Source: Brachybacterium nesterenkovii (GTDB lineage: Bacteria > Actinomycetota > Actinomycetes > Actinomycetales > Dermabacteraceae). Taken from it: a stretch of DNA of 64,000 nt. Position numbers and translations under genes: made by a program. Location: assembly GCF_900163655.1 (NCBI RefSeq), contig NZ_FWFG01000064.1, positions 1 to 64,000 on the forward strand, in the 5' to 3' direction. The first letter of the stretch is position 1. Every line of letters starts with the position of its first letter. Below the pieces are notes generated by a model, which made no database searches, was not told the origin of the DNA, and was given only the letters and a program-made list of their open reading frames with translations. Below, piece after piece: positions 2,146 through 11,393 of this stretch.

Positions 2146-7090
<4,945 letters not shown>

Positions 7091-7153: not shown

Positions 7154-8146
7154 TCACCGTGCGTCCACGGGCTCCTCCCGGTGCACCCGGATCCCGGCGC
7201 TCAGCGGGACGACGCGCTCCTGGCCCCCGGACAGCACGATGCGGATGCCGCTGGCAGCACCCGAGCTGCCCCTCCCGGCACGGTCGACATCGCTGCCTGC
7301 TCCTTCGGCGGCGTCCACTCCCGCGACGCCGCTGCCTGCTCCCTCGGCGGCGGCCGGGCCGAGGACCGTCAGCTGCGTGCGGTGGGCTCGCAGCGCGCCC
7401 TCGACGGCACGCGCGGTCCCCGGCAGCTCGCGGCGGGCGAACGAGGGGTCGTCGGCCTGGGCATCCGCATCGTGATAGCTGGCCACCTCGATCAGCGGCA
7501 CCCCCTGCGCGGCGGCGGCCCGCGCGGCGATCGTGTGCACGTGCACATGGTCCGGGTGGCCGTAGGTCCCGCCGTCGTCGTTGCTCAGCAGCACGTCGGG
7601 GCGCAGGGCCCGGATAGCGGCCTCGAGATCCGCGACCGCCTCGGCGACGGGGCGGCGGGTGAAGGCGTCGGGGCCCGTGTCCTCGGCCGGTCCGGCCAGC
7701 TGCGGCGTCACCCAGCGCATGCCGGAGTCGCGGTAGCGGCGCGCATCCGCGCCCGGCGCCAGCGCGGGAGGCGAGCCCAGGAAGCACGACGAGGTGATCC
7801 CCAGGCTGCGGGTCGCGCCGTCGAGCTCGGCGGCGCGCACCTCGACGAACGAGCGGGCATCGTCCGGGGCGATCGATCCGGGAACGGTCTCGCCCTCCTC
7901 CCCGCGGGTGGCGGTCACGAGGTCGATGCGCGTGCCGCGCGCGGCCAGGTGCGCCAGCAGCGCTCCCGTCGAGAGGGTCTCGTCGTCCGGATGCGCCTGG
8001 AGCGTCAGCACCCGCTGGGCGCCCTCGAGGAGTCGCCAGGCGTCGGGCGTCTGCGCGGCGGTCGGAGCCTGCGCGGCGGTCGGAACGTGCGCGGCGTTCG
8101 GCGCGGGCGCGGAGAGCGGATCCTGTGGGGAATCAGGGGCGGTCAT
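7154..8146 (-). CDS. PIG-L/LmbE deacetylase, MshB-like
   Basis: A 330-residue zinc-dependent N-acetylglucosaminyl deacetylase of the PIG-L family. It carries AHPDDE (residues 51-56), TRGEEGE, YRDSGM and GGTYGHPDHVHVHT, which correspond in order to the motifs of MshB, the mycothiol enzyme that deacetylates GlcNAc-inositol. The first 35 residues and a stretch near 265-300 are low-complexity Ala/Gly/Thr inserts not usual in MshB. Its start overlaps the stop of the upstream GNAT-MshA fusion gene by 4 bases (ATGA), so the two are translationally coupled. With an MshA-like domain as partner, a role in mycothiol assembly is likely but not proven; another glycosylated thiol or glycolipid is possible. 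Confidence 0.85.
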   Translation of the reverse strand: MTAPDSPQDPLSAPAPNAAHVPTAAQAPTAAQTPDAWRLLEGAQRVLTLQAHPDDETLSTGALLAHLAARGTRIDLVTATRGEEGETVPGSIAPDDARSFVEVRAAELDGATRSLGITSSCFLGSPPALAPGADARRYRDSGMRWVTPQLAGPAEDTGPDAFTRRPVAEAVADLEAAIRALRPDVLLSNDDGGTYGHPDHVHVHTIAARAAAAQGVPLIEVASYHDADAQADDPSFARRELPGTARAVEGALRAHRTQLTVLGPAAAEGAGSGVAGVDAAEGAGSDVDRAGRGSSGAASGIRIVLSGGQERVVPLSAGIRVHREEPVDAR

Positions 8147-10692
8147 CGGTTCTCCTCCTCGACGAGGACGTGGCGGTAGCAGGCTTCGAGGCGCAGGGCC
8201 GAGACTTCCCAGGTGCGGGACTCGGCGAACGCCCGGGCGGCGCGAGAGCGCTCATGGCGCTGTTCGGGATCGGCCAGCAGCGTTCGCACGGCCGCGGCCC
8301 AGTCCTCGGGCGAGCGCGAGCCGAGCACGACCCCATCCGGCCCGACGGCCTCGGTGACCCCTCCGGCACCGCTCCAGGCGATCACCGGTGTCCCGGACGC
8401 CTGAGCCTCGAGCGCCACCAGCCCGAAGGTCTCCGACCAGCTGGTGAGCAGCAGGGCATCGGCCTCGCGCATGCGGCGCGAGAGCTCCGCGCGGTCCACC
8501 GAGCCGATCAGCTCGATCCGATCGGCGACACCGAGACGCTGCGCGAGCTCCTCCAGGTGCCGCGGCTGGTCCGCGTCGTCCTCGCTCGCGCCGCCCGCGA
8601 GCACGAGGCGCGCGGGCGAGTCGGGGCCGAGGGCCGCGAGCACCTCGATCGCCAGGTCGGGCGCCTTGAGCGGCTGCAGGCGGGCGGCGTGCAGCAGCGT
8701 CAGACTGCCGGTATCGGTATCGGTATCGCCAGGAGCATTGTGCTCGTCCTCGGCGGGGTGGAACACGCGCGTGTCCACCCCCGGCAGGACGGTGCGGATG
8801 CGGGCGGCGGGCACGTCGTACCGCTCGCGGACCGTGCGGGCCTCGGACTCGGAGACGGCCACGACCAGGTCGGCCTGGGTGGCGGCCCGGCGCTCCCCGG
8901 CGATGCGGCCGGGCGACTCGGGAGGCTCGCCGTGATCGAGCGTGGCGGCACCCTCCGGCGCGGCGACCGAGTGGAAGGACTGCACGAGCGGCAGTCCGCG
9001 GGCGCGGGCCGCATCGAGCGCGGCGACCCCGCTGAACCAGTGGTGGGCGTGCAGCACGTCATAGGCGATACCGGAGTCCAGGTGGCGGGCGAGCGCCGCG
9101 GCGAACGGGGCGATGGTCTGCTCCATGGCGCTCTTGGCCAGGGGCCGTGCGGGCCCGGCGTCGAGGTGGAACAGGCGCAGGCCGGGGGCGATGCCGATGA
9201 CGAACGGGGCGGCCGGATCCGTGCGCCGGGTCAGCAGGTCCACCTGATGGCCCCGGGCGGCCAGCGCCCGGGCCTGCTCCAGGACCACCACGTTCATGCC
9301 CCCGGCATCCGCGGCACCGGGAGGCGCGAGCGGCGAGGTGTGCAGGCAGACCGCGGCGATCCGCAGCGGGCGCGGGGCCGCGCCCTCCGTCGAGCCCTGC
9401 TTCGTGTCCTGCTTTGAGCCCAGTTTCGTGTCCTGCGCCGCGTCGAGCTCGGTGCCCGGTCGCGCGTCCTGTTCCGTCCCCGTCGCAGCGTCCGCGGTGC
9501 CTGTCGTCGCGGTGCCCGCGGCACCTCGGTCGGCAGTGCCTGCACCGGAGCCTGGGCTGGCGGCCGATGCCGCTCGCGGCCCGCCCGCCACGGGCCGGCG
9601 CATCTGCACCACCTGATGCTGGCGGCCGGTGAGGCTCACATGGACGCCGTGGGCGCTGACGGCGAAGCCCAGATGCTCATAGAGGGCGATGTTCCCCGGC
9701 TCGTCGGCCCGGACGGTGCACGTGACGGCGCGCAGCCCCTGCGCCTCGGCCTCGGCGAGGGCCCATTCGACGAGCGCCCGCGCATGCCCCTGTCCCCGGT
9801 GCTCGGGCGCGACCGCCACCCGCGACAGCTGCAGGGCGCGGGTGCGCGAGACGGTCGTCTTCATCGCGGCGAAAACGACGTCGTCGACCTGCACCGCGAT
9901 CGCCCGCATGCCGCGGGCCATCTCCGCGGCCAGGGTCTCGGGCGTCTCGAGCATCGCGCCGGAGGGGGCCTCGGTCGCGTCGTACTGCCGGAAGGCGTCA
10001 TGGATGACGCAGGCGAGCAGCTCGGCATCCTCCGCGCCGAGCTCCCGCAGAGCGCGGCGCGGAGAGGACGCGGGGGAGCGATCGGGAGGAGAGGGCGCGA
10101 GGTCCTCGTCGAAGCGGCCCTCGAGTCGCAGCAGCGTCATCTCGGTGCCGTCGGGCGCGGTGAACTCCTCCTCGCCGATCAGGCGCATGCCGTGGCGGCG
10201 GTACACCTCGGTCAGACCGGCATGGCGCGGGACCACGTTGCAGGCCAGGCCCGCGAAGCCCTCCGTCCGGGCGAGTGCGGCGAGAGCGGTGATGAGGTGC
10301 CCGGACAGCCCCTGCCCGCGATAGGACGGCAGCACCGACAGCCGCCAGAAGTACAGCAGGTCGCTCCCGGCATCGGGGTGCATCTTCACGACCGCGACCG
10401 GTGCGTCCCCGTCGAAGATCCCGAGGGCGCGGCCGGCGCCCTCGAGCTCGGTGCGGATCGACGCGTCCGTCTCGCGCTCCGTGCCGTAGGAGAAATCGGG
10501 CGTCGTGTACTCGGCGAAGGCCGCCTGCATCACCTCGCGCACCACGGGCGCGTCCTCCGGCGTCAGCTCGCGGACGGTGCGGCCGCGCGGCGCGGCATCC
10601 GGCGCGGCATCCGACGGGGCGCGGACCCCATCGCGGGACGCAGGGCCCGGCGCGGCGGTCGGGAGCGGGGCGGGGGAGTCATCGATCGGCAC
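8143..10692 (-). CDS. Fusion protein: two GNAT acetyltransferase domains plus MshA-like glycosyltransferase
   Basis: An unusual 849-residue fusion. Residues 39-195 form a GNAT acetyltransferase domain (acetyl-CoA loop RGQG at 115-118) and 214-365 a second one (RGQG near 279). A low-complexity linker (366-440) leads to a GT-B glycosyltransferase (441-849) with HTSPLAPPGAADAGGMN at 451-467, the hallmark of MshA, which joins GlcNAc to inositol phosphate. Later GT4 landmarks (HSVAAPEG, VLPGVDTRVF, ETFGLVALEAQASGTPVI) are intact. In mycothiol synthesis MshA starts the pathway and MshD, a tandem GNAT protein, finishes it, so the fusion may join both ends; the GNAT halves are not obviously MshD. The GTG at 10692 is chosen because a longer frame would invade the divergent gene; no good ribosome binding site is seen. 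Confidence 0.82.
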   Translation of the reverse strand: MPIDDSPAPLPTAAPGPASRDGVRAPSDAAPDAAPRGRTVRELTPEDAPVVREVMQAAFAEYTTPDFSYGTERETDASIRTELEGAGRALGIFDGDAPVAVVKMHPDAGSDLLYFWRLSVLPSYRGQGLSGHLITALAALARTEGFAGLACNVVPRHAGLTEVYRRHGMRLIGEEEFTAPDGTEMTLLRLEGRFDEDLAPSPPDRSPASSPRRALRELGAEDAELLACVIHDAFRQYDATEAPSGAMLETPETLAAEMARGMRAIAVQVDDVVFAAMKTTVSRTRALQLSRVAVAPEHRGQGHARALVEWALAEAEAQGLRAVTCTVRADEPGNIALYEHLGFAVSAHGVHVSLTGRQHQVVQMRRPVAGGPRAASAASPGSGAGTADRGAAGTATTGTADAATGTEQDARPGTELDAAQDTKLGSKQDTKQGSTEGAAPRPLRIAAVCLHTSPLAPPGAADAGGMNVVVLEQARALAARGHQVDLLTRRTDPAAPFVIGIAPGLRLFHLDAGPARPLAKSAMEQTIAPFAAALARHLDSGIAYDVLHAHHWFSGVAALDAARARGLPLVQSFHSVAAPEGAATLDHGEPPESPGRIAGERRAATQADLVVAVSESEARTVRERYDVPAARIRTVLPGVDTRVFHPAEDEHNAPGDTDTDTGSLTLLHAARLQPLKAPDLAIEVLAALGPDSPARLVLAGGASEDDADQPRHLEELAQRLGVADRIELIGSVDRAELSRRMREADALLLTSWSETFGLVALEAQASGTPVIAWSGAGGVTEAVGPDGVVLGSRSPEDWAAAVRTLLADPEQRHERSRAARAFAESRTWEVSALRLEACYRHVLVEEENR

Positions 10693-10790: not shown

Positions 10791-11393
10791 ATGACGAGCG
10801 CACCCGAGGTCGATTGGCATGCCTTCAACACCTCCGCGGCGGGTCGTCCCGCCAGACGCCTCGTCTCCACAGCGATCTCGGCCATCGGTGCCGTGACCGG
10901 TGCCGGGCGCTCCGTCCTGGATCTCGGGGCGGGCGGCGGATCGGATGCGCTCGAGTTCGCGCGCCGCGGCTTCACCGTCTTCGCGTACGACAGCGACGAC
11001 ACGATCGCCTCGCGCCTGGTGGAGAACTCCCGCATGGACGGGACCATCTACTTCCGCCACGGCGACATCGCCGAGGTCGAGGCCTTCCCGGCGGCGGACA
11101 TCATCTACTCCGGGTACGCGCTGCCGCTGCTCGGCGATGCCCTGCCGGCCGTGTGGGAGAAGCTCCGGGCGGCGCTGAAGCCGGGCGGCGTGGTCGCCGT
11201 CGACCTGTTCGGCGAGCACGACACCTGGGCGGGCGATGACAGCATCGCCACGTTCACCGCGGCCGAGATCGACGCGATGCTCGAGGGCATGCGGATCGTC
11301 CAGCGGGAGATCCGCGACGAGGACGGCCGCGACTTCGCCGACGGCAAGAAGCACTGGCACGTCCACACGCTCGTGGCGCGCGCGGCCGCTTGA
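10791..11393 (+). CDS. Class I SAM-dependent methyltransferase
   Basis: A 200-residue Rossmann-fold methyltransferase. Motif I is VLDLGAGGGSDALEFARRG (about residues 43-61), followed by an acidic residue after beta-2 (FAYDSDD) and a motif III-like LKPGGVVAVDLFGE. The pattern of first residues and small size resembles the TehB/UbiE-like group that acts on small molecules; the substrate is unknown. The ATG at 10791 follows a GGGGGG run. It is transcribed divergently from the GNAT-MshA fusion, about 100 bases away, so a shared control region is possible. Confidence 0.85.
   Translation: MTSAPEVDWHAFNTSAAGRPARRLVSTAISAIGAVTGAGRSVLDLGAGGGSDALEFARRGFTVFAYDSDDTIASRLVENSRMDGTIYFRHGDIAEVEAFPAADIIYSGYALPLLGDALPAVWEKLRAALKPGGVVAVDLFGEHDTWAGDDSIATFTAAEIDAMLEGMRIVQREIRDEDGRDFADGKKHWHVHTLVARAAA

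Follow-up and report, generated by a model that had tools for sequence, protein, structure and literature searches.

An MshA-like glycosyltransferase linked to an MshB-like deacetylase in Brachybacterium nesterenkovii: a candidate module for the first steps of a mycothiol-type pathway

Structure of the locus

We analyzed a 64,000-nucleotide stretch of Brachybacterium nesterenkovii DNA (contig NZ_FWFG01000064.1, positions 1 to 64,000; hereafter, the window), which carries an operon encoding a fusion of two GNAT domains with an MshA-type GT4 glycosyltransferase (hereafter, GT) and a PIG-L deacetylase (Table 1). The gene order given by an earlier sequence-only reading was confirmed when the sequence was re-read: the reverse-strand frame 8143–10692 is open over 849 codons and encodes an 849-residue protein with two GNAT domains (about residues 39–370), a low-complexity linker (371–442), and a GT4 domain (443–849), and the start of the PIG-L gene overlaps its stop by 4 bases. 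Pfam profiles matched the fusion at Acetyltransf_1 (two stretches, 88 bits) and, in the GT part, at Glyco_transf_4 (117.5 bits) and Glycos_transf_1 (102.6 bits), and the second protein at PIG-L (84 bits). Third-position GC contents (GNAT: 0.93, GT: 0.91, PIG-L: 0.90, linker: 0.81) fit coding DNA of this genome.

The GT and PIG-L genes share the stop/start ATGA at 8146–8143. With its start inside the GT stop and behind an AGGAGG, the PIG-L gene is likely translationally coupled to the GT gene. Within residues 366–451 there is a single start-like codon, the GTG at 368, for which no ribosome-binding site is evident, so no separate start is apparent for the GT part. Where the fusion itself begins (GTG at 10692) is uncertain, as no clear ribosome-binding site was seen before it.

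Table 1 Features of the operon and the divergent neighboring gene in the window.
Feature	Position	Strand	Evidence
GNAT domain 1 (about residues 39–205)	10078..10578	-	Acetyltransf_1 (two stretches in the protein); AlphaFold2 (AF2) model of the pair
GNAT domain 2 (about residues 206–370)	9583..10077	-	Best Acetyltransf_1 stretch 265–343; pair 30.9 bits on the MshD model
Low-complexity linker (residues 371–442)	9367..9582	-	No ATG/GTG/TTG in residues 369–451; stop and new ATG here in the nearest relative (G183)
GT4, MshA-like, HHW type (residues 443–849 and stop)	8143..9366	-	TIGR03449, fold match, tree, pocket residues
AGGAGG inside the GT gene, likely PIG-L ribosome-binding site	8154..8159	-	Sequence
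PIG-L deacetylase, MshB-like, 4-base overlap with the GT stop	7154..8146	-	PIG-L, TIGR03445, motifs
S-adenosylmethionine (SAM) methyltransferase, divergent; 98 bases lie between it and the GTG start	10791..11393	+	Methyltransf_25 (Pfam)

Conservation of the GT and PIG-L pair

The conserved unit of this locus is the GT plus PIG-L pair, which is linked or fused in Dermabacteraceae, Propionibacteriaceae, and Microbacteriaceae. PIG-L adjoins the GT in all 30 further Dermabacteraceae loci, which were fetched because of their GT, and the two share one open frame in six of them (L065, L072, L125, L126, L127, and L129). Among 30 Brachybacterium genomes, 26 contain an intact, full-length GT match (278–315 bits), whereas the match is split in G022 and reduced to a fragment in G003 (81% complete), and nothing above 146 bits was found in G001 (74% complete) and G008 (99% complete).

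A scan of named genomes, sampling the best 80 of 587 confirmed relatives, recovered 34 loci with the same GT type (L158–L190 and L223), which we call HHW (33 loci read HHW and L159 reads QHW). These belong to Dermabacteraceae, Microbacteriaceae (e.g., Cryobacterium), and Propionibacteriaceae (e.g., Tessaracoccus); a PIG-L gene is present in 23 of the 34, and GT and PIG-L occupy one frame in five (L160, L174, L175, L178, and L179). In family f13, which has an HHW-type GT, PIG-L was not seen within the fetched stretches. A deacetylase and a GT also share a frame in Leucobacter sp. OH1287 (L180:4083-6350), in the reverse order with PIG-L first.

Relationship to MshA, MshB, and the bacillithiol enzymes

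MshA is a D-inositol-3-phosphate glycosyltransferase that forms GlcNAc-Ins-P from UDP-N-acetylglucosamine (UDP-GlcNAc) and Ins-1-P. Its model, TIGR03449, covers fusion residues 444–843 at 304.3 bits, under the cut-off of 462.5. MshA is the best match of the GT in the PDB by sequence as well as by fold (3c4q, TM 0.86), and sucrose-phosphate synthase follows by fold. The GT4 fold with its GGMN loop is present (HTSPLAPPGAADAGGMN), and the window GT has in common with Corynebacterium glutamicum MshA (3c48/3c4q) the HTSP..PG..D.GGMN loop, K78, and R154. It is unlike MshA in its score, in the pocket substitutions Y110H and T134S and changes at Y27, K139, and N140, in forming part of a clade of its own, and in its linkage or fusion to a deacetylase.

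This clade was recovered in a tree of 90 GT domains (quick search with Shimodaira–Hasegawa-like approximate likelihood ratio support [SH-aLRT] only; built without 14 of 29 f1 rows and the frameshifted L128, and with flags on three long branches). The closest companions of the window GT are f13, a single f19 genome, and a further Dermabacteraceae genus (support 98), and f20 joins them (98); all of these lie outside both the 30 canonical MshA rows (99) and a GGQN paralogue clade (100). The GGQN clade (L096–L099 and L103–L112), which reads EHASPLA..DAGGQNVHV, scores close to MshA yet branches separately. Some canonical genomes have a second full-length MshA-like gene that had been a candidate for the HHW type, but the 10 such genes placed on the tree fell into the GGQN clade.

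The acceptor pocket was compared between 73 canonical MshA rows and 44 + 14 rows of the HHW clade, with C. glutamicum numbering transferred by alignment. Five positions that are 97–100% conserved in the canonical rows (Y27, Y110, T134, K139, and N140) are replaced in the HHW clade: all 58 rows have H in place of Y110 and S in place of T134, and Y27 is mostly V. Four f20 rows keep all five canonical residues. K78 and R154 are invariant in a nine-row alignment. In the 2008 structure of MshA, K78, Y110, T134, and R154 are reported to contact the acceptor phosphate; that set is not intact, with K78 and R154 kept and Y110 and T134 changed. By tree and alignment, the GT is part of an MshA-like clade of its own, whose acceptor pocket is remodeled.

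The PIG-L protein reaches 129 bits on the MshB model TIGR03445 (cut-off 224.35), and the alignment joins only its residues 49–215 to model positions 3–156 of 284. It carries HPDDE, GEEG, RDSGM, and YGHPDH, the metal-binding and pocket motifs of MshB. Among 56 linked PIG-L domains, HPDDE occurs in 55, DSGM in 54, and YGHPDH in all 56. HPDDE, RDSGM, and YGHPDH are common to MshB, Mca, and the window protein, whose best solved match is 1q7t, although its sub-cut-off score and partial alignment are unlike MshB. A PHROGs scan returned one weak family of unassigned function. The BshA/BshB pair of bacillithiol synthesis follows a similar GT4 plus PIG-L logic, and BshA structures are among the fold matches of the GT; however, the window proteins score 88.5 (BshA) and 37.5 bits (BshB1), far under the cut-offs, and the genome encodes an MshC-type ligase. 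Because both proteins fall below the family cut-offs, we class them as predicted to work like MshA and MshB rather than as MshA and MshB.

Thiol pathway genes in the genome, the genus, and the order

The window genome (3.02 Mb, 99.98% complete) encodes MshC (532 bits) and Mca (408.7 bits) over cut-off on other contigs and MshD on contig C101 (242 bits, 239 in a second search; cut-off 163.1), whereas profile searches found no MshA and no MshB match over cut-off. Elsewhere in the genome, the standard msh set, which in its complete form the sequence-only reading had regarded as a sign that the locus makes something else, is thus half present (MshC and MshD, without MshA and MshB). The window GT is the best MshA match of the genome, followed by one of 146 bits that spans profile positions 103–405 only. 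The four PIG-L matches of the genome include Mca, a weak BshB1 match (68.9 bits), and a weakest match in a 658-residue frame. By these scores, the window GT and PIG-L are the best MshA and MshB candidates of the genome. The TIGR03449 cut-off is reached in none of the 30 Brachybacterium genomes, whereas MshC and MshD are each over cut-off in 29 of them.

We surveyed 198 genomes of the order, classed by best E-value with cut points that we set ourselves (139 genomes with MshC were listed, against 140 in the overall tally). The 139 comprise 79 with canonical MshA, 54 with a divergent match, and 6 with neither, whereas the 54 genomes clearly lacking MshC comprise one canonical (G068, 73% complete), one divergent, and 52 with neither; five genomes have an intermediate MshC score. 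With the canonical genomes removed, Fisher's test gave p = 4e-24, ignoring relatedness. The divergent group is mixed and contains HHW types (f1, f13, and G148), f20, f6, f7, a partial canonical match (G166), and at least three paralogues. Among 20 named genomes tested for MshC and MshA, all 16 of HHW type have MshC over cut-off and none has MshA over cut-off; the other four are of HYW type. Five genomes (G094, G123, G152, G205, and G050) have MshC over cut-off without a full-length MshA-like match and may contain an unrecognized MshA; G094 is a single contig, 99% complete, and has inositol-1-phosphate synthase (Ino1).

Taken at the level of predicted function, the operon probably covers two steps of a mycothiol-type pathway, one MshA-like and one MshB-like. 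Its GT4 domain would move GlcNAc from UDP-GlcNAc onto an inositol-type acceptor, after which the coupled PIG-L protein would deacetylate the product. Cysteine would be added by MshC and acetylated by MshD, both from genes elsewhere in the genome, and Mca would cleave conjugates; inositol would come from outside the cell, or the acceptor would differ. The idea of a mycothiol module is supported for the MshA-like/MshB-like pair in one operon but not for an MshD activity in the fusion.

Several observations weigh against this proposal. Both proteins are under the curated cut-offs (304 against 462.5 bits and 129 against 224.35 bits), and an exact-pattern search for GEEG, another MshB pocket stretch, succeeded in only 32 of the 56 linked PIG-L domains. 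Six of the 139 MshC genomes have no full-length MshA-like match, and for at least three divergent genomes of the 54 (G160, G125, and G218) a sucrose-phosphate-synthase-like paralogue matches best; several f7 rows are off the tree, and the co-occurrence counts ignore relatedness. Within the genus, G057 (99% complete) has MshC and an empty site, with the endonuclease next to the methyltransferase, and G008 retains MshC and MshD but has nothing above 146 bits on the MshA model. Finally, the window genome gave no Ino1 match (TIGR03450, see below). In G057 and G008, other enzymes may serve, the pathway may be decaying, or the pair may do something else.

Under the last option, the product of GT and PIG-L would be some other deacetylated glycoside, for example a glycan of the envelope or of a secondary metabolite, and not a thiol. 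It would agree with the sub-cut-off scores and with the retention of MshC in both genomes lacking the pair (and of MshD in G008), but we judge it quite improbable: the one divergent MshA-like match among the 54 genomes without MshC is the GGQN paralogue of G135, and a divergent GT is the best MshA candidate in most MshC genomes that lack a canonical MshA.

Inositol supply and the acceptor

Ino1 of the actinobacterial type was sought with TIGR03450 in 80 genomes of our choice (of 91 first listed), with C. glutamicum as a matching control; PF07994 (0 of 38) was dropped as a weak test, since C. glutamicum itself gives no match to it. With TIGR03450, Ino1 was not found in any of 15 Brachybacterium genomes (13 with the pair; G008 and G057 without), in two other Dermabacteraceae (G089 with the GT, G197 without), in G148, or in 13 of 14 named HHW genomes, the exception being P. 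acidifaciens, with contig-edge matches just below cut-off. It was found in 11 of 11 f13 genomes, which have an HHW-type GT, and in 12 of 12 canonical, 6 of 6 f20, 8 of 8 f7, and 2 of 5 f6 genomes, as well as in G094, G160, and G038. One of the six f20 genomes with Ino1 (G050) has only a partial MshA match. Overall, Ino1 is absent by this model from 28 of 40 HHW-type genomes compared to 3 of 31 canonical, f20, f7, and f6 genomes, and f13 accounts for 11 of the 12 exceptions. Three genomes of family f6, genus g38 (G084, G150, and G217) have MshC and a HYW-pocket GT but no Ino1, and would need scavenged inositol. A tie between the pocket change and Ino1 loss was rejected, as f13 combines the changed pocket with Ino1 and these three f6 genomes combine the HYW pocket with its absence.

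Given the lack of an Ino1 match in the window genome and 14 further Brachybacterium genomes, inositol would be scavenged or the acceptor would be different. Scavenging is plausible in view of a C. glutamicum mutant in the ino1 activator, which, in the excerpted text of PMC3899939, made no mycothiol on glucose and had wild-type-like lipoglycans restored by myo-inositol.

A variant product, already raised by the sequence-only reading, keeps a place among the explanations given the missing Ino1 match and the changed acceptor pocket. In its broad form, the HHW-type GT would use free inositol or another polyol, with no phosphatase needed, or the final thiol would not be mycothiol. We regard this as possible but doubtful: replacement of five positions that are 97–100% conserved in canonical MshA and the absence of Ino1 from 28 of 40 HHW-type genomes speak for it, whereas K78 and R154, two of the reported phosphate contacts, are invariant, and f13 has the same GT type with Ino1 throughout. 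MshC, MshD, and Mca over cut-off, together with the kept main PIG-L motifs, argue instead for an inositol-bearing substrate. Direct GT–PIG-L fusions, on the other hand, skip the intermediate phosphatase step of the textbook pathway (as outlined in excerpts of PMC4360819). A specific version, in which the HHW clade would glycosylate free scavenged inositol or another acceptor, not inositol-1-phosphate, and pass the product directly to the deacetylase without a phosphatase, seems unlikely to us. If true, a free-inositol route would account for the remodeled pocket, for the fused genes, and for the failure to find Ino1; this or another acceptor would amount to a second route to mycothiol, or to a new thiol.

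This module of linked and in some cases fused MshA-like and MshB-like genes, with its changed acceptor pocket, occurs mostly in genomes in which Ino1 was not found. No account of an MshA–MshB fusion or of the HHW clade was found in the literature searched, including excerpts of PMC4255298, PMC5358740, PMC6282198, PMC3899939, PMC4360819, and PMC2628429, although the 2008 MshA structure paper or a mycothiol review may describe it. Under the preferred assignment as MshA-like and MshB-like enzymes, these two genes probably open the thiol pathway in Brachybacterium and in certain Microbacteriaceae and Propionibacteriaceae, which possess MshC but for which the standard MshA model falls short. The module also raises the identity of the acceptor and whether the phosphatase step (MshA2) of the textbook pathway is universal. 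With five pocket changes and no Ino1 found in most linked-pair genomes, the acceptor question can be tested in vitro.

Origin of the GNAT pair

The GNAT part of the fusion is less widespread than the GT plus PIG-L unit: three of 38 Brachybacterium genomes (the window's own, G183, and G155) match the pair strongly. In the nearest relative, G183 (locus L131), the tandem GNAT is a stand-alone gene with 60% identity to the window pair; it ends in TAG, and nine bases later an ATG opens the GT gene. The G155 pair (46% identity) is split by a TAG, and the methyltransferase separates its GNAT frames from the GT. A weak tandem GNAT match adjoins the GT of G005. The simplest account of the G183 layout and the G155 arrangement is that the GNAT domains were joined to the GT recently, when neighboring genes would have lost the stop between them.

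The sequence-only reading had suggested that one polypeptide may carry both MshA and MshD activity. The pair shares the tandem GNAT architecture of the mycothiol synthase MshD (TIGR03448; 1ozp) and 1ozp is found in the fold search (rank 27, E 2.1e-8), but we consider this combination very improbable. The profile check of the GNAT part against MshD gave 30.9 bits, far under the cut-off of 163.1, a dedicated over-cut-off MshD lies on C101, and the pair is strongly matched in 3 of 38 genomes compared to 29 of 30 over cut-off for MshD; as a candidate MshD, the pair was rejected. Its nearest solved folds are other tandem GNATs, led by that of the clavulanic acid cluster (2wpx) and MAB_4324 (7q3a), at 17–18% identity and TM 0.34–0.36 over the pair, with domain placement uncertain in the moderate AF2 model (pLDDT 73, pTM 0.50). 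The pair is a predicted accessory acetyltransferase and not MshD. The GNAT fusion is a local event, unrelated to an MshD role, and should not be read as a mycothiol megasynthase.

Neighboring genes

Recurring flanks of the 30 Dermabacteraceae loci are an ADP-ribosylglycohydrolase-side gene (28 loci), a membrane protein (27), the methyltransferase (29), and an endonuclease-like frame (23). The methyltransferase, divergent beside the GT in those 29, is probably a neighbor and not part of the system. The idea that it modifies the thiol, modeled on NmbA of N-methyl-bacillithiol (excerpts of PMC6282198), is weakened by its retention in G057 without the GT/PIG-L pair. Long frames upstream of the GT in several relatives, considered as extra fusions, proved to be antisense over the divergent methyltransferase. 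No recurring neighbor emerged as a phosphatase candidate in the 34 named HHW loci, where the widely recurring frames besides PIG-L are opposite-strand overlaps. Four further neighbors were scanned; two gave Pfam matches (a LigD primase domain and DUF429) and two gave none. A LacZ-type beta-galactosidase (3030-6323, forward strand) and a DUF4184 protein (6272-7090, reverse strand) lie beside the operon, and neither frame is among those shared with the 30 related loci.

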